The notes under the pieces: generated by a model
The model's database searches: none
What the model saw: the letters and a program-made list of their open reading frames with translations, nothing else
What the model was told of the DNA's origin: nothing
Assembly (NCBI GenBank): GCA_029261715.1
Contig: JAJDAT010000025.1
Coordinates: 124,001 to 188,000, forward strand
Direction of reading: 5' to 3'
Source: Nitrospinia bacterium
GTDB lineage: Bacteria > Nitrospinota > Nitrospinia > Nitrospinales > JAJDAT01
Length of the DNA: 64,000 nucleotides
Translations under genes and position numbers: made by a program
In this document: positions 5,186 through 35,876 of the stretch, piece after piece
Layout of the letters: the number at the start of each line of letters is the position of its first letter
How positions within the stretch are numbered: the first letter of the stretch is position 1

Positions 5186-6571
5186 ATGAGTAAACAAGAC
5201 TTTAAAAGAAAAATTGCTTGTATTGGCGCGGGATATGTTGGCGGCCCGACAATGGCTATTATTGCCAATAAATGTCCTGAGTATAAAGTTACAGTGGTGG
5301 ATATTGCCCAGCCGAGAATTGACGCTTGGAACTCAAATAATCTTCCAATTTTTGAACCGGGTTTGGAAGAACGTGTTTTAGCTGCAAGAGGAAAGAATTT
5401 ATTTTTTTCCACTGACGTCGATTCTGCAATTAGCGAGGCGGATATTATTTTTGTTTCAGTTAATACGCCTACAAAAACTTTTGGGCAAGGAGCTGGTAAA
5501 GCCGCAGATCTTCAATTTATTGAAAAAACTGCTAGGAAAATTAAAGAAGTATCCAAATCAGATAAAATTGTCGTTGAAAAAAGCACCGTGCCTGTAAGAG
5601 CGGCTGACACTTTAGATCAAATTTTGCATTCAGGAGAAGGTGGTCCGCATTTTGAAATACTTTCCAATCCCGAGTTCTTAGCTGAAGGATCTGCAATAAG
5701 TGATATGGAAAATCCAGATAGGATATTGATCGGATCAAAGGAAACTGAAAAGGGCTTAGAAGCTAGAGAAGAATTATGTAAAGTATACGCTCATTGGGTG
5801 CCTAGAGAGAGACTTATAACCACCAATCTTTGGAGTAGTGAGCTTTCAAAATTAGTTTCCAACGCTTTTTTAGCGCAAAGGATTTCTTCAATTAATAGTA
5901 TTGCCGCTATTTGTGAAGTTACCGAAGCAAGTGTTTCGGAAGTCTCCAACGCAGTAGGAAGAGACTCTCGAATTGGAAGAAAGTTTTTAAATGCAGGAGT
6001 TGGTTTTGGCGGTTCTTGCTTCCGAAAAGATATTTTGAATTTAGTTTATCTTTGTGAATTCCATGGCTTGGAAGAAGTTGCAGAATATTGGAGACAAGTG
6101 GTTGCTATAAATGATTTCCAAATGTCGAGGTTCGTAAAAAGAATTACAAAAGCGATGTTTAACACGTTGGTGGATAAAAAAATTGCTTTGTTTGGTTTTG
6201 CGTTTAAACCCGATACGGGAGATACGAGGGACGCTCCGGCTCTTCAGATTACTTTAGGATTATTGCAGGAAAGGGCTAAATTATGTATAACCGATCCTCA
6301 TGCTTTGCCTAACGCTAAATTGGATTTGAAAGGCTGTGAAGGGACCGTTGATTTTGAAGAAGATCCTTACAGGGCCATAGAGGGCGCCCACGCCATTGCG
6401 CTTGTAACAGAATGGTCATGCTATAAAGACTTAGACTTCAAAAGAATATATGACTTGATGGAAAAACCCGCCTTTATTTTTGATGGGCGGAATTTATTAG
6501 ACCATAAAGCGTTATTCGAAATTGGCTTTAATGTTTATCCGCTAGGAAAACCCGACCTCAAACATTTTTAA
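5186..6571 (+). CDS. UDP-glucose 6-dehydrogenase, animal-type
   Basis: NAD-dependent two-step oxidation of UDP-glucose to UDP-glucuronate, precursor of surface polysaccharides. The 461 aa protein has the Rossmann start CIGAGYVGGPTMAIIA, the SVNTPTKTFGQGAGKAADL loop, EKSTVPVRAA, SNPEFLAEGSAI, SKLVSNAFLAQRISSINS and the catalytic GFGGSCFRKD with Cys278. These segments, and the total length, follow the metazoan enzyme (catalytic Cys276 in human) far more closely than the shorter proteobacterial Ugd. Animal-like UGDHs are known in some bacteria, so direction of transfer cannot be read from this. The ribosome site (AGGA, 14 nt away) is poor. It is flanked by a terminator and a non-polysaccharide gene, so no pathway context is visible. 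Confidence 0.96.
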   Translation: MSKQDFKRKIACIGAGYVGGPTMAIIANKCPEYKVTVVDIAQPRIDAWNSNNLPIFEPGLEERVLAARGKNLFFSTDVDSAISEADIIFVSVNTPTKTFGQGAGKAADLQFIEKTARKIKEVSKSDKIVVEKSTVPVRAADTLDQILHSGEGGPHFEILSNPEFLAEGSAISDMENPDRILIGSKETEKGLEAREELCKVYAHWVPRERLITTNLWSSELSKLVSNAFLAQRISSINSIAAICEVTEASVSEVSNAVGRDSRIGRKFLNAGVGFGGSCFRKDILNLVYLCEFHGLEEVAEYWRQVVAINDFQMSRFVKRITKAMFNTLVDKKIALFGFAFKPDTGDTRDAPALQITLGLLQERAKLCITDPHALPNAKLDLKGCEGTVDFEEDPYRAIEGAHAIALVTEWSCYKDLDFKRIYDLMEKPAFIFDGRNLLDHKALFEIGFNVYPLGKPDLKHF

Positions 6572-6697
6572 ATTATTCAATTATAGTTTCCTAAAAAGCT
6601 AAAAGAATCAAAGTTAGAGAAAGAGAATTTATCTTGCTATTTTTGTCCCTACCTATTGAGGTATTTAAATTCATAATTTCATTATTTAAAAATTGAT

Positions 6698-9619
6698 ATG
6701 CCAAATCAAATAAATGAAATAGCCCCTGGGCAACGTTGGGTAAGCGATACTGAGTCTGAATTGGGCTTGGGGTTGGTTATGGAAGTAGAAAATAGGCGAG
6801 CGACCGTCCTATTCCCAGCCGGCAATGAAACTAGGGTTTATGTTAAGTCAGCCGCTCCCTTGACTCGTGTCCGATTTTCAATTGGCGATTTAATTGAAAG
6901 TTCTGAAGGTTGGAAAATGAAGACACTTTCGATTACGGAAGACGATGGGTTGCTAATTTATGAAGGACTTAAAGAAGACGGTTCGAAAGCGAAATTGACA
7001 GAATCGGAATTAAGTAGCTTCATTCAATTTAATAAACCTCAAGATCGTTTATTTGCGGGACAAATTGATTCTAACTCCTGGTTTGATTTAAGGTTTACTA
7101 CTCTTAAAAAGTATAACGAAACTGAAAAATCCTTAACTCGAGGTTTATGTGGTGTCCGAGCGGGTCTTATACTACATCAGATATATATTGCCGCCGAAGT
7201 AGCCGACCGAGTTTCCCCGCGGGTTTTACTGGCTGATGAAGTGGGTCTTGGTAAAACGATTGAGGCGGGTTACATACTACACCGACAACTTATGGTTGGT
7301 AGAGCTTCCAGAGTTTTAATCATCGTTCCCGAGTCTCTTTGTCACCAGTGGCTTGTTGAAATGCTTAGAAGGTTTAATTTACGTTTTAGTTTGTTTAACG
7401 AAGAGAGATGTTCTGGTTTTGAAGACGAAAACCCTTTTTTGTCAGAACAATTAATGATCTGTTCTTTGGAGTTTTTTAAGGATAATCCCAAGCGGCATGA
7501 AGAAGCGTTAAATGGAGAGTGGGATATTCTTGTTGTGGATGAAGCACACCATCTAGTTTGGGACGAGGAGATGGCAGGTAAAGAATATCTATTGATTGAA
7601 AGTTTTGCAAAGGTAATCCCTTCGTTATTGCTTTTAACCGCAACTCCGGAGCAACTTGGTTTAACCAGTCATTTCGCGAGACTTCGACTTTTAGATCCTA
7701 AACGGTTTTTTGATTTTAAGCTTTATTTGGAAGAAGTCGAAAAATATCAACCAATCGCTAAAACGGTTCAAAGTATTTTAAATAAAAAAAAGTTAGATTC
7801 TTCTGAAATAAAATTATTAGAAGAGTCTCTGTTGGAAGATAAAAAAAATCTTACTGAAATATTGGAAAATTCTAGTCAATCTGATGGTAGTAAACAAGAA
7901 GCGCGTCAACAGATTGTCGAAAGGCTTTTAGATCGACATGGCACTAGCCGAGTTTTATTTAGAAATACCCGGAATACAGTTAAAGGGTTTCCAGAGAGGA
8001 TGGCGATTCCGCAACCGTTACCATTTCCAAAAGAGTATGGTTCTCGTTTTATTGATAAATGGGTATTAGCAAAAGGAAAAAAAATAAATGCCGATTTATC
8101 ACTAGAAGGTTCTTTATTTCCAGAAGTTGTTTACCGAAACCTTTTTGGTAAAAAACATACTCCTTTTTGGTGGATGATTGATCCTCGCGTAGATTGGTTA
8201 ATTCAAAAGCAAAAGGAATTAAATGATGAGAAGGTTTTAATTATATGTTCTCACAAAGAAACAGTTTTGGATTTAAATACAGCCCTTCGCGAACGCGCTA
8301 ATATATCGGTCGCTGTATTCCATGAAGATATGAATATTATTGCTAGGGACCGCGCTGCTGCATACTTTGCCGAATTGGATGGAGCGCGTGTTCTGATTTG
8401 TTCAGAAATTGGAAGCGAAGGAAGGAACTTTCAATTTTCTAGAAACTTGATTCTTTTTGACCTTCCTATGAATCCAGATCTTTTAGAGCAAAGGATTGGA
8501 CGGCTGGACCGTATTGGGCAAAAGCATGATATCCAAATTCATATCCCTTACTTAGAAGGAAGTTCGCAAGAGTCGATGTATCGTTGGTATCAAGATGGAT
8601 TGAATGCATTTGAAAAATCTTGCTCGTTTGGCTATGGGGTTTTCCAAAACTTAAAAGAAGAAATTGATCCTGTTATAGGCAGCAAAGAGTTTAAAGAAGA
8701 CGCTTTAAAAGATTTAATTTCAAAAACCAAAACCTTGGAAAAAGCAACGCGAGAAAAATTGGAAAGTGGTAGAGACCTTCTTTTAGAAATTAATTCTTGT
8801 CGTTCTAATATTGCAACTGAATTAATTAATGAAATACAAATATGGGATGGAGATAAAGAGTTAGAGAGCTATCTGGAAAATGTATGCAGTTGTTATGGGA
8901 TTGATATGGAAAATCATTCAGATAACTGCTTTATCCTTCGTCCAGGGGATAATATGTTTGTCTCTAGTTTTCCTGAGCTAAAGGAAGAGGGGGTAACGGT
9001 AACTCTTGATAGAGAGACGGCTCTTGCAAGAGAGGATATGGGGTTTTTGACCTGGGAGCATCCCATGATTCGGGGAGCCATGGATTTGGTTTTCAATGGA
9101 GAATTTGGGAATACAGCTTTGGCAACTATAAAGGACCGAAGAATTGATTCTGGAACGGTCCTTTTAGAAACAATTTTCATAATAGAATGTGTCGCTCCCT
9201 CAAAAGTGCAAGTCAATCGGTTTTTGCCACCCACTCCTCTCCGTATTCTTCTAGATTCTGATTTTAGAGATCAGAATAAAAAGTTTCCTTTTGAATATTT
9301 TCAAAATCGTTTGGAATCAATGGAAGCGGCAATCGCGGCAGATATGGTTCGTAAAGGCAAAGACACTATAGAAGCCATGCTAAAAAAGAGCCAAACCCTC
9401 GCTGAGAAAAAAATTCAATCTATTGTTCAAGCATCTAAAGGTTCTATGGAAAAAGCGCTTTCAAATGAAATCAATCGACTAAGGGAATTGAAGAAAATAA
9501 ATCCAAATATTCGAGACGAAGAATTAGCGCTTCTTGAAAAACAGAAAATAAAATTGAGTGAATATATGAACAATACAAAACTTCACCTCGACGCTATTCG
9601 CGTAATTCTATGTGGATAA
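6698..9619 (+). CDS. rapA: RNA polymerase-associated ATPase RapA (SNF2 family)
   Basis: RapA is a SWI2/SNF2-type ATPase that binds RNA polymerase and promotes its recycling after termination. The 973 aa length equals that of the enterobacterial protein. The N-terminal Tudor-like part starts with GQRWVSDTESELGLGLV; the ATPase core follows with KPQDRLFAGQID, the P-loop LADEVGLGKTIEAG, VPESLCHQWLVEMLRRFN, the DEAH box VVDEAHHLVW and LLLTATPEQLG; the second lobe has GRNFQFSRNLILFDLP and QRIGRLDRIGQ (motif VI); a long family-specific C-terminal part ends the protein. All ATPase motifs look intact. It is monocistronic, 126 nt after the preceding gene. Confidence 0.96.
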   Translation: MPNQINEIAPGQRWVSDTESELGLGLVMEVENRRATVLFPAGNETRVYVKSAAPLTRVRFSIGDLIESSEGWKMKTLSITEDDGLLIYEGLKEDGSKAKLTESELSSFIQFNKPQDRLFAGQIDSNSWFDLRFTTLKKYNETEKSLTRGLCGVRAGLILHQIYIAAEVADRVSPRVLLADEVGLGKTIEAGYILHRQLMVGRASRVLIIVPESLCHQWLVEMLRRFNLRFSLFNEERCSGFEDENPFLSEQLMICSLEFFKDNPKRHEEALNGEWDILVVDEAHHLVWDEEMAGKEYLLIESFAKVIPSLLLLTATPEQLGLTSHFARLRLLDPKRFFDFKLYLEEVEKYQPIAKTVQSILNKKKLDSSEIKLLEESLLEDKKNLTEILENSSQSDGSKQEARQQIVERLLDRHGTSRVLFRNTRNTVKGFPERMAIPQPLPFPKEYGSRFIDKWVLAKGKKINADLSLEGSLFPEVVYRNLFGKKHTPFWWMIDPRVDWLIQKQKELNDEKVLIICSHKETVLDLNTALRERANISVAVFHEDMNIIARDRAAAYFAELDGARVLICSEIGSEGRNFQFSRNLILFDLPMNPDLLEQRIGRLDRIGQKHDIQIHIPYLEGSSQESMYRWYQDGLNAFEKSCSFGYGVFQNLKEEIDPVIGSKEFKEDALKDLISKTKTLEKATREKLESGRDLLLEINSCRSNIATELINEIQIWDGDKELESYLENVCSCYGIDMENHSDNCFILRPGDNMFVSSFPELKEEGVTVTLDRETALAREDMGFLTWEHPMIRGAMDLVFNGEFGNTALATIKDRRIDSGTVLLETIFIIECVAPSKVQVNRFLPPTPLRILLDSDFRDQNKKFPFEYFQNRLESMEAAIAADMVRKGKDTIEAMLKKSQTLAEKKIQSIVQASKGSMEKALSNEINRLRELKKINPNIRDEELALLEKQKIKLSEYMNNTKLHLDAIRVILCG

Positions 9620-10071
9620 AAATGGCGATTAAAAAGTATTAGGACCTTTTTCATTTTTGTTTCCTATTCTTTTCACTTGAATCTGAGTATCCCTCCTCTA
9701 AAAATCCTGCTTTAGTAAAAATATTTTTTAAAACAAATTTTGAGATTGATTTAATTCAAAATCACATGACTCCGATTCGCTATTTTGGCGTTTAATTCAT
9801 AAACCTATTAAAAACTCGCCAAAATTAACTTATTAGCGTATTTTGGTTAAACCCTTACTTTTACAAGGTTTGTTGGCTAATAATTTTTACTGAACATTGA
9901 TTAATGGTTTAATTCTTAACTTTTTTTAATTTACCCTTAATTCAATTTTAATTTTAAGGCCTTATCCTTAATTCTAGAAAATACTAAAATTACTTAGTTT
10001 ATGATTTGATAATTAAAATATTGTTTAAATGTGGAAGTTTGAAACCTTGTTTTCTTGGAGGATAAATCGAA
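9620..10071. other. 452-bp non-coding region upstream of the DegP gene
   Basis: AT-rich, without a convincing gene. It holds a 9-bp inverted repeat ATTTTGGCG (9782-9790) / CGCCAAAAT (9817-9825) with a 26-nt spacer, which might be a hairpin ending rapA or an operator. No strong sigma-70 or sigma-E-like promoter could be picked by eye. A GGAGG ribosome site precedes the DegP start. Confidence 0.5.
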
Positions 10072-11547
10072 ATGGTTAAAAAAGTTAAAGTTCTATTTAC
10101 AGTCGCTCTGGTTTTAGCGGTTGCAACCTTTGGCGCAAATTTGCGTGGATTGGATTCTAGTTTGTTTGTTGATAGAGCTTATGCAGACGAGCGCTTTAAT
10201 CCGATCGGTTCAAACGTTTTTGTTGAAGTTGCCAAAAACCAAAATCCTGCGGTTGTTCATGTTAGTCATAAAGGATCAAAAGCTAAAATGAGAGACGGAA
10301 GCGGCAGTCGAAAGGGAAATCCTTTTGGTTTTCGAGAAAGAAATCACCAAGGCGGTCCAAATCCTTTTGGTAACATGCCTCCAAACGACAGAAGAGGGCC
10401 TCGTTCAAAAGGTGGTATGGGGTCTGGGTTTCTTATTGATGAAAAGGGATATATTTTGACGAATCATCATGTTGTTGAAGGCGCAGACGAGGTAACGGTT
10501 GGCCTTGATAATAAGAAAGAATATGACGCTAAGGTTATTGGGACCGATCCTAAAACTGATATTGCACTACTCAAAATTGAACCTAAAGATGGCGATCCTA
10601 AAAACTTCCCATACTTGAGAATGGGTAATTCAGATAGTTTACAAGTAGGCGAATGGGTAATGGCTATTGGTAACCCATTTGGTTTGGATCACACCGTGAC
10701 GGTTGGAGTTGTTAGCGCGAAAGGTCGAAATATTGGAGCGGGACCTTATGATGAGTTTATTCAAACAGACGCTTCTATCAATCCAGGAAATAGCGGCGGT
10801 CCATTACTGAATATTGAAGGCAAAGTAATTGGTATTAATACAGCGATTATTTCTGGAAATACTGGAGGAAATGTAGGTATTGGTTTTGCGACACCTATTA
10901 ATGTGGCCAGAAAGATCCTAAGCGACCTACGAGAAAAAGGTTCGGTTACTCGTGGTTGGTTAGGAGTTATGGTTCAGGAAATCACTCCTGATCTAGCTTC
11001 TACTTTTGGTTTAGAAGGTAGTGATGGAGCTTTGGTAGGTAATGTTATTCCAAATAGTCCAGCTTCTGCTGGTGGAATTAAAAGAGGCGACGTTATTGTG
11101 AAGTTTGATAACAGCGCTGTTAAAGAAATGACAAACTTGCCAAAGCTAGTTGCAGGAGCTAATCCTGGATCAACGGTTCCAGTCGAAGTGATTCGTGACG
11201 GCAAAAGTAAACAATTAAATATTAAGATTGCAGTTTTAGAAGAAGAGAGTGTAAAAACGGCGTCTTTAGGAAAACCACTGGGAGTGCAAACTCAAGATAT
11301 TTCTCCTGAATTAGCAGAACGTTTGAATTTAGAAGATATAACAGGGGTTTTAGTTTCTGATGTCGATCCTGATTCTCCAGCGGCCCGTTCTGGTATCCGG
11401 AGGGGCGACGTTATTCTTGAGATCAACCGTAAGCAGGTTAAGAATATGAGAGATTATCACGCGCTTGCTGGGAAAAAAGGGCCTTCGGACACTCTTTTGA
11501 TGCTAGTCAAAAGAGGTGGTACCTCGATTTATATCGCAGTTAAATAA
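10072..11547 (+). CDS. Periplasmic serine protease DegP/HtrA family (Do)
   Basis: Periplasmic quality-control protease/chaperone of 491 aa. A signal peptide (about residues 1-38) precedes the trypsin-like domain. The catalytic triad is visible as His133 in TNHHVV, Asp163 in TDIALLKI and Ser241 in GNSGGPLL. Two PDZ domains follow (about 290-380 and 395-490), the DegP/DegQ arrangement. Between the mature N-terminus and the protease core (about 70-115) there is a low-complexity Gly/Arg/Pro/Asn-rich insert, comparable in position to the flexible LA loop but unusual in composition. A GGAGG ribosome site supports the start. It is monocistronic, with a possible terminator downstream. It could be called DegQ or MucD instead; these cannot be separated without phylogeny. 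Confidence 0.95.
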   Translation: MVKKVKVLFTVALVLAVATFGANLRGLDSSLFVDRAYADERFNPIGSNVFVEVAKNQNPAVVHVSHKGSKAKMRDGSGSRKGNPFGFRERNHQGGPNPFGNMPPNDRRGPRSKGGMGSGFLIDEKGYILTNHHVVEGADEVTVGLDNKKEYDAKVIGTDPKTDIALLKIEPKDGDPKNFPYLRMGNSDSLQVGEWVMAIGNPFGLDHTVTVGVVSAKGRNIGAGPYDEFIQTDASINPGNSGGPLLNIEGKVIGINTAIISGNTGGNVGIGFATPINVARKILSDLREKGSVTRGWLGVMVQEITPDLASTFGLEGSDGALVGNVIPNSPASAGGIKRGDVIVKFDNSAVKEMTNLPKLVAGANPGSTVPVEVIRDGKSKQLNIKIAVLEEESVKTASLGKPLGVQTQDISPELAERLNLEDITGVLVSDVDPDSPAARSGIRRGDVILEINRKQVKNMRDYHALAGKKGPSDTLLMLVKRGGTSIYIAVK

Positions 11548-26699: not shown

Positions 26700-27608
26700 T
26701 TAATTTTTCTTATTTAATGCAGAATCGATTACACAATTGATTTCCGTAAGAATCAGGTCGAGGGAAACATTGTGCATTTGCGCGGTTTGTTCCACAGTTT
26801 CAATCGCTTGTCCTGGACAAGAAAAGCAGCCTTCGCCATAATGCTTTTCAAACACAGCTTTGGTGTTTCCGTAAGTTTTTATTAGACTGCCGACCATAAT
26901 GGATTTATTGCATTGCTCACCCCATGTAATCTTTTGACCTTCACTCGTTTTGATGGCAGGAGGCTTCGGAGTTTGATTTTGTGAGTGGATGGAGTTATTG
27001 AGTTTTTCTAAAAATGGATTTAATGAGACATTGTGTTTTTCGCAAGCTTTTTCGAGAGAAATAACTTTAGCAAAAGTTTCACGGGCTACAGGATTAGATA
27101 AAGTTTGAAATCCGTTTTCTACAAATATTGGAAGTGTATTTGGAAAAAAAGAAAGTACTTCGCTTACTTTCATGTCGCCGGTGATTTTGTTCGGGATACT
27201 CGTTTCATTTTTTGGCGCAAGAGCTCCATATAGGTTGTAAACCATTATGAGTAAACCGGCGCCTGCAGATAGAGAAAACAGAATAAATAAAACGTGGAGT
27301 AATCCTGATTTCCAAAGGCCGCCTGCCAGATGAGTCGAGACTAATCCCAGTAGGCCTATATTGTGAAGAAAGAAGTGATACTTTACTCCAGCTGGCCATG
27401 GTAAGGGGCGGGCATTAAAACGAGGAATGACATGATAAGCGACGCTAGCGATCATCATTGTCATAAACCCTAACAGGTTTAAGTGAATATGGACAAAGCG
27501 TAACTTTTCAATCCAACCGGGAAAACCTCCCATAGAGATTCCCAAAATGGCTCCAATAATTAAATAAATTAGAGCCGCTTTAGTGAAAAGCTTGGCGTAT
27601 AATTCCAT
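26700..27608 (-). CDS. Membrane protein with His-rich four-helix domain fused to two DUF1858 domains
   Basis: 302 aa. Residues 1-135 contain four membrane segments with regularly placed histidines (HIHLNLLGF, AYHVIPRF, HFFLHNIG, STHLAGG), a pattern like heme-binding helices of oxidase subunit I or NnrS relatives. Two cytosolic DUF1858 domains follow: about 145-210 (VSEVLSFFPNTLPIFVENGF, no Cys pair) and 230-300 (VGSLIKTYGN, then GCFSCPGQAIETVEQTA). The second resembles the free-standing DUF1858 protein at 59622. DUF1858 is often found with nitric-oxide and iron-sulfur repair proteins. The gene lies 29 nt after the ECF sigma gene. Heme binding and a redox or NO-sensing role are inference. Confidence 0.75.
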   Translation of the reverse strand: MELYAKLFTKAALIYLIIGAILGISMGGFPGWIEKLRFVHIHLNLLGFMTMMIASVAYHVIPRFNARPLPWPAGVKYHFFLHNIGLLGLVSTHLAGGLWKSGLLHVLFILFSLSAGAGLLIMVYNLYGALAPKNETSIPNKITGDMKVSEVLSFFPNTLPIFVENGFQTLSNPVARETFAKVISLEKACEKHNVSLNPFLEKLNNSIHSQNQTPKPPAIKTSEGQKITWGEQCNKSIMVGSLIKTYGNTKAVFEKHYGEGCFSCPGQAIETVEQTAQMHNVSLDLILTEINCVIDSALNKKN

Positions 27609-27637: not shown

Positions 27638-28195
27638 TTAATTTGCGTACAGCTCGTTCCTTAATAACTCTCCTTTTAGATATAGCTTTGCCCTAGATAA
27701 ACGTGACATGACAGTGCCAATTGGAATGTCTAACTTATCGGCAATTTCCTTATAAGAGAGGTTTTGAAAGTAAAACAGTTGAATTAAAATTTTTAATCTC
27801 TCTTCTAGGCCTTCAATAATAAACCTCAATTCGCGGACAATTTCTTCTGCCAAGATCTCTTTTTCAGGAAATTTGTTTGTAACTAATTTATCTACAAAGT
27901 TTGTTAATTCTCGATTGTCCCATTTTTTATTTCTGAGAACTTCTTTGAGGAATAAATTTTTGAGAATAGCTAAAAGCCAATATTTACATTTTTCTCTATC
28001 TCGCAATTGGCAGAAGTTTTTAATTCCGTAAAGGATAGTCTCTTGAACTAGATCTTCAGCAAAGTCCACGTCTCTGCAAAGTTGTAAAGCGCGATTAAAG
28101 ATAGATTTTTGGTGTGGAAGGATGATGGATTCAATTGTATTCGTTGCAAAGTTTTCTGATGTTTGCGACGTTGTTCTTATTGAAAGAGTTTCCAT
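27638..28195 (-). CDS. ECF-type RNA polymerase sigma factor
   Basis: 185 aa. Region 2 includes DFAEDLVQETILYGIKNF and KYWLLAILKNLFL; region 4 includes LEERLKILIQLFYFQNLSYKEIADKLDIPIGTVMSRLSRAK, the DNA-binding HTH. This is the normal ECF length with a ~25-residue extra N-terminus. No classic anti-sigma factor follows; instead the next gene encodes the membrane-DUF1858 fusion, which could play that part, though it does not resemble known anti-sigmas. A ribosome site AGGAAAG-like stretch precedes the ATG. Its place between a degenerate receiver and a putative heme protein suggests a redox-responsive regulon, unproven. Confidence 0.9.
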   Translation of the reverse strand: METLSIRTTSQTSENFATNTIESIILPHQKSIFNRALQLCRDVDFAEDLVQETILYGIKNFCQLRDREKCKYWLLAILKNLFLKEVLRNKKWDNRELTNFVDKLVTNKFPEKEILAEEIVRELRFIIEGLEERLKILIQLFYFQNLSYKEIADKLDIPIGTVMSRLSRAKLYLKGELLRNELYAN

Positions 28196-28250
28196 TGGTC
28201 TTTCCTTTCATCCCTGTGAATCCCTAGCTTTTTTATTTTCAAGAGATACG

Positions 28251-28661
28251 TTAGTAATTAAAATCCTTTTGCGGAATTATTAAACTTTCAACGGTTCTAA
28301 AAAGTTTGTTTGTGTTAATAGGTTTTAACAAGTAGTCCTTTATATTTTTTTTAAGAAATGGTCCGGTTTGATCTTTTTGGGAAGAATCGATCATAATGAC
28401 TATAGGAATGCCTGGAGCTTCGTTTTGAAGCTGTTGTAAGGCTGAAAGATCTTCCTTTTTATTCAAGCTAAGACCGTAAAGCATCAAATTGGCTTCTATT
28501 AAATTGTTTCTCATTTTTAAAATTTCAATAGCTTCCGAAATGTTTGCAGCTGTTAAGCACGTTAAGTTTTTCTCCGTTAAAAGCCGCTCGATCTCATTTC
28601 GAATTTCTAAAGTTTCTTCAACTATTAAAACTTTTTCTTTTGGACTAAATTGAGTAACCAT
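28251..28661 (-). CDS. Degenerate receiver-domain protein
   Basis: 136 aa consisting of one CheY-like fold. The acidic pair is replaced by Glu-Glu (LIVEETLEIR), the phospho-acceptor position is not Asp (NLMLYGLSL where receivers have DLxLLDxxx), but the conserved Lys-Pro (YLLKPI) remains. It is probably a pseudo-receiver that acts by protein binding without phosphorylation. It lies 56 nt upstream of the ECF sigma gene in the same direction, so sigma sequestration by partner switching is an attractive but untested idea. Confidence 0.75.
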   Translation of the reverse strand: MVTQFSPKEKVLIVEETLEIRNEIERLLTEKNLTCLTAANISEAIEILKMRNNLIEANLMLYGLSLNKKEDLSALQQLQNEAPGIPIVIMIDSSQKDQTGPFLKKNIKDYLLKPINTNKLFRTVESLIIPQKDFNY

Positions 28662-28839
28662 CGATTCGATTTAAAATTCGAGTCGTTAAAAAAAGCCAAT
28701 CGACCTTTTTTTAATAATAGTTAAAGCAGGACTTGTACCAAAAATAGAGGGAGGATTTAATTTTTTGTAAGCTATTGAAATTGTTGAGAGTTTGGTCGAG
28801 TACGGTGAAGCGTCTGGAAGGAATGGGAAGAAAGCTTTT

Positions 28840-28871
28840 TTAAATTAATTTAAATTTTTAAATTAATTTAA
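28840..28871. repeat. Two copies of a 14-bp AT palindrome
   Basis: TTAAATTAATTTAA occurs at 28840-28853 and 28858-28871, both self-complementary and 18 bp apart, in the gap between two reverse-strand genes. The sequence could melt easily, fold as a hairpin, or bind a nucleoid protein. Its A/T composition makes chance occurrence more likely than for mixed sequence. Confidence 0.4.
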
Positions 28872-28951
28872 AAGTTTTATAAAAAAAATTAAAAAATATA
28901 TTGAGGATATATAAAGAGAATAGGGGGGAGGTTGTAAGGATTACAAAGTGA

Positions 28952-30160
28952 TTAAGGTTTTTTGAGGCCTAATTTCTTGATTCGGTAAGCGAGGTTAGCT
29001 GGAGGGACGCCTAAAATTTCTCCTGCTCCCCTAGGGCCAAATACTTTCCAATTCGTTTTTTCTAACGTGGAGAGGATAGTTTCTTTATTCAAGTTTTTTA
29101 CGTCTTCTTTCTGTGTTGAGCGATCTGTTGTTTGCGGATCATTTTTCGTTTTATTTTCATCTGAGCTTAGTTCTCTTTTTTGTGGAAAGTTGAATTGCAA
29201 AGGCCCATCTGTATGAATAAGAATCGCACGTTGAATTACGCTCTGTAATTCTCTGATATTTCCTGGCCAATCATAGTTTTCAAGTTGTTGAATGTTTTGG
29301 TCGGTGATTTCCAGAGGGTGAACTTTAAATTGGTTACAAACTTGTTTTAGAAAATATTCGGCTAATATTTTTATGTCCTCAGTTCGTTCTCGTAACGAGG
29401 GCGCTTGAATAGGAATAACGTTTAATCGATAATAAAGGTCTTCCCTGAAGTTTCCTTTTTTTACTTCTTCTAATAAATTCCGGTTTGTGGCGGCAACAAT
29501 TCGGACGTCGATTTCTTTTGTGATATCGTCTCCAACTTGTTCGAATTGACCTTCTTGGAGAACTCGAAGTAATTTTACTTGTAGATCTAGCGGAATTTCA
29601 CCTACTTCGTCTAAAAAAAGAGTTCCTCCATCGGCCAATTGAAATCTTCCTATCCGGTCTTTAATCGCTCCAGTGAAAGAGCCCTTTTTATGCCCAAAAA
29701 ACTCGCTTTCAAAAAGGGAATTTGGTATTGCCCCACAATTAACCTTTATAATGGGTCTATGATTTCTTAGGCTCCGTTGATGTATTTCTTTAGCAAATAG
29801 TTCCTTCCCTGAGCCTGTCTCACCTTGGATCAAAATGGTTACATCTCTTTTTGCAATAGAGTCAATCTGTTCTAAAGCATTTTTAAGAGCTGGACTTTGA
29901 CCAATAATATTGCCTGAGAACTGATCGTTTTTATATTCCTCTATAAAAAATTCGTTTTCAGCTTTTAATTTTTGGCGAAGTTTATCGAGTTCTACGTAGA
30001 GTTTTTTTAGTTCCGCATGGGCGCTTTCTAATTCCTGTCGTTTTTTCTTTTCGGCCCAATACAAGGATGAGAATTCTTCCGCATATTTAATGGCTTGGAT
30101 TTCAGATATTTCTACAGGATCTCTAGTGGTTTCTTTATTTTTATCCACTGGACGTACCAT
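28952..30160 (-). CDS. Sigma-54-dependent transcriptional activator without receiver domain
   Basis: 402 aa. An N-terminal coiled coil (about 30-80) replaces the usual sensor domain. The AAA+ core has IIGQSPALKNALEQ, GETGSGKELFAKEIH, the sigma-54 loop GHKKGSFTGAIKDR (GSFTGA instead of GAFTGA), TLFLDEVGEIPLDLQVK, REDLYYRLNVIPI and DWPGNIRELQ. A Lys/Asp/Thr-rich linker leads to a Fis-like HTH (FGPRGAGEILGVPPANLAYRIKKLG). It lies 5 nt after the single-domain receiver gene, so that receiver and the kinase upstream may control it through its coiled coil. Probable targets include the divergent cytochrome operon. Confidence 0.92.
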   Translation of the reverse strand: MVRPVDKNKETTRDPVEISEIQAIKYAEEFSSLYWAEKKKRQELESAHAELKKLYVELDKLRQKLKAENEFFIEEYKNDQFSGNIIGQSPALKNALEQIDSIAKRDVTILIQGETGSGKELFAKEIHQRSLRNHRPIIKVNCGAIPNSLFESEFFGHKKGSFTGAIKDRIGRFQLADGGTLFLDEVGEIPLDLQVKLLRVLQEGQFEQVGDDITKEIDVRIVAATNRNLLEEVKKGNFREDLYYRLNVIPIQAPSLRERTEDIKILAEYFLKQVCNQFKVHPLEITDQNIQQLENYDWPGNIRELQSVIQRAILIHTDGPLQFNFPQKRELSSDENKTKNDPQTTDRSTQKEDVKNLNKETILSTLEKTNWKVFGPRGAGEILGVPPANLAYRIKKLGLKKP

Positions 30161-30165
30161 TAAAG

Positions 30166-30543
30166 TTAAAGAAGTAGTTTTTCTACTTTTTGAATTAATT
30201 CTGTCGGGCTAAAAGGTTTAACAATATAATCGTTTGCTCCTGCCTGATAACCTCGATCAATATCCGACTCTTGCCCCTTAGCGGTTAGAAAAACGATTGG
30301 AATATTTTGAGTATTCTGATCATTCTTTAAAATTCGAGTTGCTTCTAAACCGTCAAACTTACCGGGCATCATTAAGTCCATAAGGATTAAATCTGGATTT
30401 TCTGAGGAGGCTAGTTGAATTGCATCTTCCCCTGAACTAGCTTCAATTATATGATAGTCGTCGTTACCTTTGAACGTTGCAAGTACCAACATACGCAATC
30501 TTTCATGATCGTCTACGATTAGAATTTTTTTCTTTGATTCCAT
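30166..30543 (-). CDS. Single-domain response regulator (CheY-like)
   Basis: 125 aa receiver with all key residues: VDDHERLR, LILMDLMMPGKFDG (phospho-acceptor Asp), FLTAKG (Thr) and YIVKPFSP (Lys). There is no output domain, so it must act by binding. It sits between the GAF-PAS-PAS kinase (29 nt upstream) and the sigma-54 activator (5 nt downstream), suggesting a kinase, receiver, activator chain encoded in one operon. Confidence 0.93.
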   Translation of the reverse strand: MESKKKILIVDDHERLRMLVLATFKGNDDYHIIEASSGEDAIQLASSENPDLILMDLMMPGKFDGLEATRILKNDQNTQNIPIVFLTAKGQESDIDRGYQAGANDYIVKPFSPTELIQKVEKLLL

Positions 30544-30571
30544 TAAATTATAATTTCATATTCCCACAAAA

Positions 30572-32713
30572 TTAATTGGGGATTGTAAAGTAGATCGTTG
30601 TGCCCTTAGATAATTCCGTTTCTATCCAAATTTTACCGCAATGCGCTTCTAAAATATATTTAACAATAGTCATTCCCAGTCCAGTTCCTTGAATTGCCGT
30701 ATTGGAAGAATCTGCACGATAAAACTTATCAAATATTTTTTCGACTTGGTCCTTGCTCATACCAAGCCCATTGTCTTGAATAGAAAATTGTATTTCTGAT
30801 TCTAAAATCTTTATTACCGTTTTTATTTCACCACCTTTAGGAGAGTACTTAATTGCGTTGGAATATAAATTTTTAAAAACTCCTTCCATTTTTTCTTTAT
30901 CTAAAGAAAAAAGTATCTCTTTTTCAGAAGTTTCTACGATGAATGAATGTTTTTCAGACTGTTCTTCAAATATGGCGATAATAGAGCGGATTGTTTCTAA
31001 AATATTGCAGTTTCTTTTATTAAGAATAAACCCCTGACCTGATTCAATTTTTGAAAGATCCAAAAGATCGCTTACTAAAGTAGTCAGATGTTGTGATTCT
31101 TCGTGAATGAACGTTAAGTAGTTTGTTTTATCCTTAGAATCTATGTTGTCTCGTGTCAGCAAGATTTCAGAAAAACCTCTAATGGATGTTAGTGGTGTCT
31201 GAAATTCATGAGCAGCCGTGGAAATGAACTCCGTTTTCATCCGGTCAATTGCTCTTTCTTTTGTGACGTCGTTCATGGTTGTGACGTTTCCTAGTTTCAA
31301 CCCTTCAGAATTTTTAATTTTAGAAGTCCTAGCTTGAATAATAATTTGGTTTTTATTTAGGGGTTCTCCTAATACGAAGTCAAATTGAAAATCATTTGTT
31401 GGATGTGAAATGGCGGTTTTAAATTTTTCAAATAAAAATTTTTCTTGAATAACTTGTTCAAGAGGTCTGTTTATTACATCGTTTAGCTTTTTATCGAAAA
31501 GATCTTGCGCGGCTTTATTCATTAAAGTTACGCAATTTTCATTATCTGTAACAATTAGAGCATCGCCAATCGATTTTAAAATAGCGTCTATTTGATTTTT
31601 TGCGGCATTGGTTTGTACGATTGATTTTTGTAGATCTTCTGTTCGGTTGCGAACCATTTGTTCAAGGTTGTTAGCATATTCTTCTAATTGTTTTCTAGCG
31701 TGATTTCGTTCTGAGATATCTCGGATAATGCCTAAAAAGACTCTATTACCTCGCCAATTCATCTCGCTGATTGCCAAATCCATATCAAAAGTTGTTTTGT
31801 CCTTGCGAAGTCCAATAACCTCGCGCCCAATTCCAATGATATGAGCCTTTCCCGTTTCTTTATATCGATTCATGTAGTCATCATGCTCAGTTTTATACGG
31901 TTCAGGCATTAGTATTTTCACATTTTGGTCAAAAACTTCGGATGTGGAATAACCAAACAATCGCTCGGCGGCAGGGTTAAAAAGTTGAATGATTCCATTT
32001 TCGTCAATAACTATGATGGTATCGACCGCAGTGTTAACTACTGAGTCTAACCGGCTTTCACTTTCTTTAGTTTTTGCTTCGGCGCGTTTGCGTTCGGTAA
32101 TTTCCAATTCAAGAGATTTATTGATTTCGGAAACTTTTTGAGAATGTTTTAAAACTTCGTCGCGGTTGCGTTCTAATTCCTCGGCAAAGTGTATTAATTT
32201 TTCTTCGGTATCTTTTCTACGAATCGCCCAAGATAAAACATGGCATATTGACTCTACAAAGTTGATTTCGTCTTGTGTGTAAACTTTAGGAGTTAAACTG
32301 TGAGCGCCAAGAATTCCAAAGGAGTTTTTTTTGCCGGGAATGATGCAAGTGATACCGCTTATAATATTTCGTTTCTTTAAAAAGGGCGTTTGCGAAAACC
32401 GGCCGTTGGTTTCAAAGTTTTCAATCAAAACAGGTCTCGTAGAACTCAAAGTTTGAGCTGCCTGTGGAAAGTCCTCTTGATTGATGATTACTTTTCCTAC
32501 AATATCTCCCCAACCAATTCCAGATCTCATCAAAAAGCCTTCGCTTCCATGGAGAAATTCTAAAACTTCTCCAAATTCAATTTGAAGCGTTGCGGTTACC
32601 AAGTTAACCGCTTTATCCATTAGATTCAATGGTTCCAATCCTTCTAAAGCCGATCTACTGAATTGGATGATGATTTCTTGATGTAAGTATTTTCGGCTAA
32701 TGGAATCTTCCAT
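30572..32713 (-). CDS. Soluble GAF-PAS-PAS histidine kinase
   Basis: 713 aa, no membrane segments. Order: GAF domain (about 20-165), coiled coil (170-220), PAS (225-340, with VFDQNVKILMPEPYKTEH), second coiled coil, PAS (365-480), HisKA with His502 in STAAHEFQTPLTSIRG, and HATPase with NLYSNAIKYSPKGG, DNGLGMSKDQVEKIFDKFYR and GTGLGMTIVKYIL. The first PAS resembles FixL-type domains in wording (PEPYKTEHDDYM), so heme-based oxygen or NO sensing is possible, but a heme-ligand His is not securely identified. It heads the reverse-strand operon and is divergent from the Rieske gene by 159 bp. Confidence 0.92.
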   Translation of the reverse strand: MEDSISRKYLHQEIIIQFSRSALEGLEPLNLMDKAVNLVTATLQIEFGEVLEFLHGSEGFLMRSGIGWGDIVGKVIINQEDFPQAAQTLSSTRPVLIENFETNGRFSQTPFLKKRNIISGITCIIPGKKNSFGILGAHSLTPKVYTQDEINFVESICHVLSWAIRRKDTEEKLIHFAEELERNRDEVLKHSQKVSEINKSLELEITERKRAEAKTKESESRLDSVVNTAVDTIIVIDENGIIQLFNPAAERLFGYSTSEVFDQNVKILMPEPYKTEHDDYMNRYKETGKAHIIGIGREVIGLRKDKTTFDMDLAISEMNWRGNRVFLGIIRDISERNHARKQLEEYANNLEQMVRNRTEDLQKSIVQTNAAKNQIDAILKSIGDALIVTDNENCVTLMNKAAQDLFDKKLNDVINRPLEQVIQEKFLFEKFKTAISHPTNDFQFDFVLGEPLNKNQIIIQARTSKIKNSEGLKLGNVTTMNDVTKERAIDRMKTEFISTAAHEFQTPLTSIRGFSEILLTRDNIDSKDKTNYLTFIHEESQHLTTLVSDLLDLSKIESGQGFILNKRNCNILETIRSIIAIFEEQSEKHSFIVETSEKEILFSLDKEKMEGVFKNLYSNAIKYSPKGGEIKTVIKILESEIQFSIQDNGLGMSKDQVEKIFDKFYRADSSNTAIQGTGLGMTIVKYILEAHCGKIWIETELSKGTTIYFTIPN

Positions 32714-32872: not shown

Positions 32873-33337
32873 ATGGAAGAAACACAAAATAAAATCTTAA
32901 ACCGTCGAGAGTTTATAAACGCTTTTATGGGCACAAGCATTTTAGCGAGTTTAGGATTATTTTTCTCTTATTTTTTGAGATTTTTATTCCCGCCAATTAG
33001 ACATAAAAGATATCGCAAATTGTACGTTACTCAAACGAAAGATATTCCTTCAGGAAAAAGTTTAAAGGTAAAAGACCTAAAGGGGCAAAGCATTAATATA
33101 GTTAATACCGGGAAAGAGTTTATTGCATTGTCTACTAAGTGTAGCCATTTGGGGTGCAATGTTATTTGGAAAGACCGCGAAAAGAAGTTTTTTTGTCCCT
33201 GTCACGACGGTTATTTCGACGCTGAAGGAAATGTGTTAAGCGGTCCGCCACCAAAGTCCCTATCGTCTTATGAAGTAGAAGTAGTTAACGAATCTATTTT
33301 TATTCATGTCGACGAGGTAAATCTTGGAAACGCTTAA
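32873..33337 (+). CDS. Rieske iron-sulfur subunit of a cytochrome bc complex
   Basis: 154 aa. The N-terminus has an RREF twin-arginine-like motif followed by one membrane anchor (about 20-38); the Rieske domain carries CSHLGC and CPCHDG, giving the two Cys and two His ligands of the [2Fe-2S] cluster, plus GPPPKSLSSYEV. It accepts electrons from quinol at the Qo site of cytochrome b and passes them to a c-type carrier on the periplasmic side. The gene overlaps cytochrome b by 14 nt. No cytochrome c1 or f gene is present; the octaheme cytochrome takes that place in the operon. Confidence 0.95.
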   Translation: MEETQNKILNRREFINAFMGTSILASLGLFFSYFLRFLFPPIRHKRYRKLYVTQTKDIPSGKSLKVKDLKGQSINIVNTGKEFIALSTKCSHLGCNVIWKDREKKFFCPCHDGYFDAEGNVLSGPPPKSLSSYEVEVVNESIFIHVDEVNLGNA

Positions 33338-34406: not shown

Positions 34407-35876
34407 ATGTCTCTCAACGCAAAAAAAATAGTCATTGCCATCATTGGTATTTTTTTCTTAGGAGCTTTATTGGTAGTAGGAGCTATCGAAAGCAACAAAA
34501 GAATAGTCGGCAAAAAAGCCTTTATTAAAGTGGCTATGAATAGTAAAAAATGCGTTGATTGTCATACAGTAAAAAGTCCCTCTTTGGTGGAGCAATGGCG
34601 AGATAGCAAACATGCATTAAGAGGGGTAGGGTGTATGGAATGCCATCAAGCGGAGAAAAGCGATGTCGACGCATGGGAACACGAAGGCGCATCTATAGCA
34701 GTGATTGTTTCTCCAAAGGATTGCGCCAAATGTCATATTAAAGAGAACCAGCAGTTTCAAGCGTCTCACCACGCTGATGCGGGTAAGATATTAGGTTCGT
34801 TAGATAATGTTTTAGCGGAAGTAGTTGAAGGAGATACTCATCAATTTTCATTCAACGGTCAATCTCCCGCCGCTATTAATGGTTGCTGGCAGTGCCATGG
34901 ATCATTAGTGAAAATTATGGAAAATGGTCGCCCTGACCCGTCGACTTGGCCCAATACTGGAATCGGTCGGATAAATCCAGACGGAAGCAAAGGATCTTGT
35001 TCCGCATGTCATTCTAGGCATAATTTTTCGGCGAGGGTGGCTCGCCATCCAGATAACTGTGGGAAATGTCATTTGGGGCCGGATCATCCCCAAAAGGAAA
35101 TTTACGAAGAATCCAAACATGGTATAGCTTTTAAAGCGTTTCAAGAATACATGAATATTGACGCTCAACCTTGGCGGGTAGGGATCGAATACACTGCGGC
35201 GCCTACTTGCGCAACTTGTCATATGAGCGCAACGGAGGAACAACTTGTTACTCATGATGTGGGTATGAGAATCTCATGGAATTTGAGACCTCCCGTTTCA
35301 GAAAAGATAGACGCTAAAGCTATTAAAATGGGAGAAGCCGTTGTTCCATGGCAAGAGCGTAGAAAAAATATGAAAAATGTTTGCACGAAATGTCATTCCG
35401 AAAATTATGTGAATGGATTTTACGAACAGTTTGATAGCGCGATCAATTTATATAATGGGAAGTACGGTAAACCAGCTACCAAAATTTACAAAATGATGAA
35501 ATCCGGTGGAGTCTTAACCGCTACCAACTTTGATGAAAAGCTGGAATGGACTTATTTCTATTTGTGGCATCACGAAGGTCGAAGAGCTCGGCATGGCGCT
35601 GCCATGATGGCTCCAGATTATACACAGTGGCATGGATTTTTTGAATTGGCGGAAAGATTCTACATGGAATTTGTGCCGCAAGTTAAAGAAGCGTGTGAAA
35701 AAGCGAGTCACGTTGGAGGTAAAGTTGCGAATACAGCCTCTTTGGTTTTAAAGGAATTAGATGTTATTCTGAATAAAGATGAACATAAGTGGTTCCTTGG
35801 AAAAATGTCAGATAAGGAACGATCTCGCAGAAAAGCCGCCGCCGCTGAGTTTAAAAAGCGGTACGCTCAAAATTAA
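34407..35876 (+). CDS. Membrane-anchored octaheme cytochrome, hydroxylamine oxidoreductase (HAO) family
   Basis: 489 aa. An uncleaved-looking N-terminal anchor (about 7-27) precedes eight CXXCH motifs at residues 49, 76, 106, 160, 198, 218, 268 and 326, whose spacing and flanks (CSACHSRHNFSAR, CGKCHLGPDHPQKEIYEESKHG, APTCATCHM) match HAO one for one. The fourth, CWQCH, corresponds to the catalytic P460 heme. The C-terminal block WHHEGRRARHGAAMMAPDYTQWHG is typical of the wider MCHao superfamily; whether Tyr405 equals the Tyr that cross-links heme P460 in oxidative HAO cannot be settled by eye. Without that cross-link such proteins usually reduce nitrite or hydroxylamine. Location beside Rieske and cytochrome b suggests quinol-linked electron flow. 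Confidence 0.93.
   Translation: MSLNAKKIVIAIIGIFFLGALLVVGAIESNKRIVGKKAFIKVAMNSKKCVDCHTVKSPSLVEQWRDSKHALRGVGCMECHQAEKSDVDAWEHEGASIAVIVSPKDCAKCHIKENQQFQASHHADAGKILGSLDNVLAEVVEGDTHQFSFNGQSPAAINGCWQCHGSLVKIMENGRPDPSTWPNTGIGRINPDGSKGSCSACHSRHNFSARVARHPDNCGKCHLGPDHPQKEIYEESKHGIAFKAFQEYMNIDAQPWRVGIEYTAAPTCATCHMSATEEQLVTHDVGMRISWNLRPPVSEKIDAKAIKMGEAVVPWQERRKNMKNVCTKCHSENYVNGFYEQFDSAINLYNGKYGKPATKIYKMMKSGGVLTATNFDEKLEWTYFYLWHHEGRRARHGAAMMAPDYTQWHGFFELAERFYMEFVPQVKEACEKASHVGGKVANTASLVLKELDVILNKDEHKWFLGKMSDKERSRRKAAAAEFKKRYAQN

Follow-up and report, generated by a model that had tools for sequence, protein, structure and literature searches.

In Nitrospira (N. moscoviensis and N. japonica), the gene for an octaheme nitrite reductase (OCC/ONR) adjoins petBC genes coding for a Rieske protein and cytochrome b (PMC6606698, PMC6311188). 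Expression of the unit is high when nitrite is the sole nitrogen source, in keeping with assimilatory nitrite reduction (PMC6606698). In a quarter of the octaheme-encoding Nitrospirales genomes NapC is found instead of Rieske/cytochrome b, and lineage IV has this alternative (PMC12342949). In Kuenenia, the cluster Kuste4569-4574 encodes an HAO-like octaheme protein (Kuste4574) together with Rieske/cytochrome b, and nitrite reduction has been proposed for it (PMC12954380). The absence of the tyrosine cross-link of HAO is the published criterion for reductive HAO-type enzymes (PMC12758564, PMC3701875), and the signature of epsilon-Hao, as Haase et al. are quoted in PMC8940962, is a Trp at the tyrosine position with a Met eight residues earlier. 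Among known nitrite oxidizers of the marine water column, the most abundant belong to Nitrospinota; a comparative study of this phylum names NirA and NrfAH, and not an octaheme protein, in its main text (PMC10839748). We found no earlier report of a Rieske/cytochrome b-octaheme unit from Nitrospinota in the literature examined.

We analyzed a stretch of 64,000 nucleotides (the window) from a Nitrospinia bacterium, which contains the following features, all on the plus strand:

32873..33337, plus strand: Rieske [2Fe-2S] protein of 154 aa (PF00355, 7.9e-14), with an RR motif and an N-terminal helix
33324..34382, plus strand: cytochrome b of the unsplit b/b6 type, 352 aa (PF00033, 2e-50; PF00032, 2e-9)
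34407..35876, plus strand: HAO-superfamily octaheme cytochrome c resembling epsilon-Hao (Met400...Trp408), with an uncleaved-looking N-terminal anchor
34428..34484, plus strand: membrane anchor helix, residues 8-26 (Kyte-Doolittle mean 2.96; helix 3-31 in the predicted structure)
34884..34898, plus strand: CWQCH (residues 160-164), the fourth heme motif, which corresponds to heme 4 of the active site (P460 in HAO)
35082..35087, plus strand: Asp226-His227, equivalent of Asp267-His268 of Nitrosomonas HAO (NeHAO)
35628..35630, plus strand: Trp408, which takes the place of the cross-link tyrosine of HAO (NeHAO Tyr467)

The Rieske gene runs 14 nt into the cytochrome b gene, and a gap of 24 nt separates the latter from the octaheme gene, an intact ORF of 489 aa with an ATG start. 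Since neither the CBS-domain gene downstream nor the histidine kinase cluster upstream is conserved beside the octaheme gene in relatives, we consider the unit to be made of three genes. Cytochrome b carries a PEWY motif and two spaced histidine pairs (93/107 and 194/209). The Rieske protein has the cluster ligands CSHLGC...CPCH, with Gly and Phe in CPCHDGYF where Ser and Tyr are usual. As Ser and Tyr raise the potential of bc1 Rieske proteins, a lower-potential quinol would suit this one. With Rieske and cytochrome b directly upstream, the quinone coupling that the preliminary description derived from its bc-type neighbours is probable, and the three proteins may form a physical complex. Beside the unit lies a divergent regulatory block (27638-32713, minus strand) encoding a sigma-factor-like protein, two response regulators, a sigma-54 activator and a PAS/GAF histidine kinase, which relatives do not have at the corresponding position. 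A membrane protein gene (26700-27608, minus strand) combines a COX1-like N-terminus with DUF1858/prismane-associated redox domains, even though the genome search turned up no prismane protein.

The unit resembles that of Nitrospira, compared here by description, in having Rieske and cytochrome b directly upstream of the octaheme gene, in the use of NapC as an alternative partner in some lineages and in a host that oxidizes nitrite, as the present one probably does. It differs in that the host belongs to Nitrospinota, in lying outside a nitrogen-assimilation cluster with amtB/cynS, and in the presence of a NirA-like protein and NrfHA in the same genome. Given this match with the Nitrospira literature, including the NapC alternative, we count it as an already-known kind of unit, and by this comparison the Nitrospira octaheme protein likely belongs to the same family. 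Kuste4569-4574 shows the same association of an HAO-like octaheme protein with Rieske/cytochrome b, but includes three further components that do not adjoin the unit studied here: a subunit IV-like protein, an NAD(P) oxidoreductase and a second multiheme cytochrome.

The octaheme protein is a member of the HAO superfamily, as the preliminary description had proposed. It matches the Pfam family Multi-haem_cyto (PF13447) with 94.7 bits (cut-off 21.9), and its eight CxxCH motifs (residues 49, 76, 106, 160, 198, 218, 268 and 326) map one to one in the alignment onto the hemes of five HAO-family proteins of solved structure, namely NeHAO, HOX, HDH and HAOr of Kuenenia, and Ignicoccus IhOCC. A first AlphaFold model from 22 sequences was poor (pLDDT 69) and was superseded by one built on 80 relatives (pLDDT 86.7, pTM 0.81). 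With this model, all 11 significant Foldseek matches against the PDB were HAO-family octahemes, IhOCC ranking first, followed by HAOr and Nitrosomonas HAO. The ONR/NrfA-like fold of the Thioalkalivibrio-type octaheme nitrite reductase found no such match: NrfA came at E 0.5 or worse and ONR was absent among the 50 PDB matches listed. IhOCC (PDB 4qo5) is the closest solved structure (phmmer 165 bits, Foldseek TM 0.66). The hydrophobic helix at residues 8-26 also bears out the N-terminal membrane anchor. The octaheme gene is single-copy, no second such gene having been found in the 5.33-Mb genome.

The preliminary description let the direction of catalysis depend on the tyrosine that cross-links heme P460, and put forward Tyr405 in DYTQWHG as the candidate. 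We compared this site with NeHAO, HOX and HDH sequences taken from PDB alignments; residue numbers for HOX, HDH, HAOr and IhOCC refer to partial sequences, those of NeHAO and the octaheme protein do not. In the ungapped register from a common 'LE', Trp408 corresponds to NeHAO Tyr467, HOX Tyr386, HDH Tyr383, HAOr Trp463 and IhOCC Phe486. When the family profile was slid ungapped along the HAO C-termini, HAOr Trp463 was the best placement in all four profile windows (shuffle p<=0.004) and IhOCC Phe486 in both windows that fit within its truncated sequence (p 0 and 0.002). NeHAO Tyr467 ranked first in three of the four windows, though at p values of 0.57, 0.06 and 0.01, and HOX and HDH were not significantly placed, so that neither of these two shows the register alone. 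MAFFT alignments bridged by two desulfobacterial relatives and the haoB-linked HAO of Ruegeria set Trp408 on the cross-link tyrosine in two modes out of three, the third being off by one (Gln407). Among the first three MAFFT runs, one was discarded because a large gap displaced its C-terminus (Thr443 on Tyr467), and aligning the C-terminal part globally with hhalign gave a large, uninformative shift. Tyr405 occupied the cross-link position in none of the alignments; the ungapped register, the profile scan and the bridging alignments thus rule it out as the P460 cross-link residue. The alignment with known HAO enzymes that the preliminary description had proposed therefore speaks against the oxidative reading: the tyrosine of oxidative HAO/HDH is replaced by Trp408, pointing to the reductive direction.

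Met400 and Trp408, which together form the epsilon-Hao signature, are invariant in all 80 relatives, and Tyr405 is present in 79. Epsilon-Hao of Nautilia and Caminibacter (reverse-HURM) is likewise an HAO-type octaheme that lacks the cross-link Tyr, and it is quinol-linked by proposal, as we infer for the unit described here. Its partner is cM552/NapC rather than Rieske/cytochrome b, it has a signal peptide instead of a membrane anchor, and no Hcp was found in the genome studied here. HAOr (PDB 6h5l) is also an octaheme HAO-like reductase without the cross-link, but it shares 19% identity in the fold match and was crystallised as a Kustc0457/Kustc0458 complex, not with Rieske/cytochrome b. Unlike the octaheme protein, IhOCC has Phe486 (partial-sequence numbering) at the cross-link site and Val for the active-site His. 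As Asp226-His227 is kept in 80/80 relatives while IhOCC has this Val, a catalytic role for the octaheme protein appears likely.

Relatives were drawn from GTDB genomes, the conservation counts covering 80 of them. Octaheme matches were detected in 24 of the 77 Nitrospinota genomes searched; in 13 of the 24, the present genome among them, identity was 78-100%. The unit is thus a patchy accessory one. In the tree, the 13 rows around the octaheme protein form one clade (SH-aLRT 99), which an acidobacterial MAG (L017) joins weakly (46). Rieske and cytochrome b lie directly upstream of the octaheme gene in 11 relatives' loci (Nitrospinota, plus L012), and in two further loci cytochrome b is visible on a truncated contig. 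This form is found in Nitrospinaceae and in the acidobacterial MAG, where napA follows just downstream. Elsewhere the partner is NapC: a NapC-type tetraheme gene directly follows the octaheme gene in 13 gammaproteobacterial loci, whereas NapC is located upstream in 6 deep-branching Nitrospinota loci and on two desulfobacterial plasmids, one of which has an adjoining NO reductase gene. The latter is a mobilizable plasmid of Desulfosarcina ovata (L160, 2233-7179), in which NapC and the octaheme gene adjoin norR and the nitric oxide reductase gene. In Marithrix (L041), nap genes are not beside the octaheme gene, and a 634-aa nine-heme cytochrome encoded directly downstream (9451-11352) is perhaps a third kind of partner. 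Judged by eye, the charged, uncleaved-looking anchor (MSLN.K..I) occurs only in examined members with Rieske/cytochrome b, while most other examined members have cleavable-looking signal peptides. Taken together, partner genes and N-termini indicate that the quinol-oxidizing partner has been exchanged and that the anchor follows the Rieske/cytochrome b form. As NapC and Rieske/cytochrome b both take electrons from quinol, this exchange fits reduction. A gene for a nitrite source, napA, lies near the octaheme gene in six loci (L017, L066, L074, L075, L078 and L079).

From these sequence comparisons, the octaheme protein very probably works in the reductive direction, and we propose with nearly the same confidence that the unit reduces nitrite (or hydroxylamine) in the periplasm with electrons from quinol, rather than oxidizing hydroxylamine. 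The Rieske/cytochrome b pair would oxidize quinol in the membrane and pass the electrons to the anchored periplasmic octaheme protein and along its heme chain to heme 4, which, free of a tyrosine cross-link, would reduce nitrite and probably hydroxylamine. Nitrite is a probable substrate, and ammonium, of which we are somewhat less sure, would be the most likely product. With no prismane/Hcp protein found in the genome search, hydroxylamine as a product would require another sink. The role might be assimilatory, as proposed for Nitrospira, or respiratory at low oxygen.

Among the alternatives, the one that survives best is a sub-case of the reductive reading, with which its likelihood overlaps: the enzyme could serve in vivo to detoxify NO or hydroxylamine. 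Nitrite oxidizers face both compounds, the relative on the Desulfosarcina plasmid adjoins norR and the nitric oxide reductase gene, and nitrite may already be covered by NrfHA and the NirA-like protein. We nevertheless regard this function as unlikely, because expression of this kind of unit in Nitrospira indicates nitrite as nitrogen source and napA lies near six relatives. Much less probable still is a hydroxylamine dehydrogenase that feeds hydroxylamine electrons into the quinone pool through cytochrome b. The HAO fold, all eight hemes and the Asp-His pair are kept, and the native octaheme cytochrome of orange Beggiatoaceae (BOGUAY_0691), possibly a relative, oxidizes hydroxylamine and hydrazine in vitro and also reduces nitrite (PMC6449678), so oxidation is conceivable even without the cross-link. 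However, the cross-link position is without tyrosine, the unit has no haoB-like neighbour, in contrast to Ruegeria HAO, and the partner genes encode quinol dehydrogenases that belong to reductive modules, with napA near some relatives. Finally, although the unsplit cytochrome b, the Rieske protein and an anchored cytochrome make up a complete bc-like set, it is just as improbable that the octaheme protein is a non-catalytic electron-transfer c-subunit replacing cytochrome c1/f, given the separate complex III with its own cytochrome, the HAO enzyme fold and an Asp-His pair that stays invariant among relatives whose partners differ greatly.

That main complex III, from which the Rieske/cytochrome b of the unit differ, is encoded elsewhere (L157, G000:C15:47000-58500, 5814-10825) and consists of a Rieske protein, a split cytochrome b6/subunit IV and a cytochrome of 905 aa that has eight CxxCH motifs and cbb3/cytochrome c-like domains and is not HAO-like. 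The bc operon of N. gracilis adjoins an 'atypical octaheme' (PMC3578206). We rejected its identity with the octaheme gene at 34407..35876, as its counterpart is probably the 905-aa cytochrome beside the split cytochrome b. The genome also encodes an NrfH/NrfA pair, an ammonia-forming nitrite reductase (L158, G000:C1, 1441-3342), in what is probably a nitrite oxidizer. NrfH scored above its NCBIfam cut-off; NrfA reached 359 bits (cut-off 595), yet 489 bits to PF02335, and the NirA-like protein scored below its cut-off. That these enzymes are already present speaks against the proposed nitrite reductase, since a third such enzyme would have no evident purpose. Family searches by themselves (PF00384, PF14711) would have called NXR absent from the genome, as was first suggested. 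This was rejected with an NxrA query, whose first 49 residues were found at 96% identity at two contig ends (L155, G000:C32:2-148; L156, C47:178392-178538); the host is therefore probably a nitrite oxidizer whose nxrA was cut by the assembly. Molybdoproteins of NxrA length are encoded in some of the related genomes that carry the unit, and one of these proteins matches Kuenenia NxrA with 1705 bits.

For the annotation of HAO-like genes, these results imply that the conserved tyrosine of DY[TV][QH]W should not be read as the P460 cross-link when calling such genes oxidative. Within one family, the quinol-oxidizing partner is swapped between NapC and Rieske/cytochrome b, with the membrane anchor tracking the partner. 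Nitrospinota would thereby join Nitrospira, the group for which a quinol-linked octaheme nitrite reductase has been described until now. More speculatively, and we think improbably, a nitrite oxidizer might also reduce nitrite to ammonium via a Rieske/cytochrome b-octaheme complex that is proton-motive and would conserve energy when oxygen is low; if so, a single marine bacterium could produce nitrate and also turn nitrite nitrogen back into ammonium.
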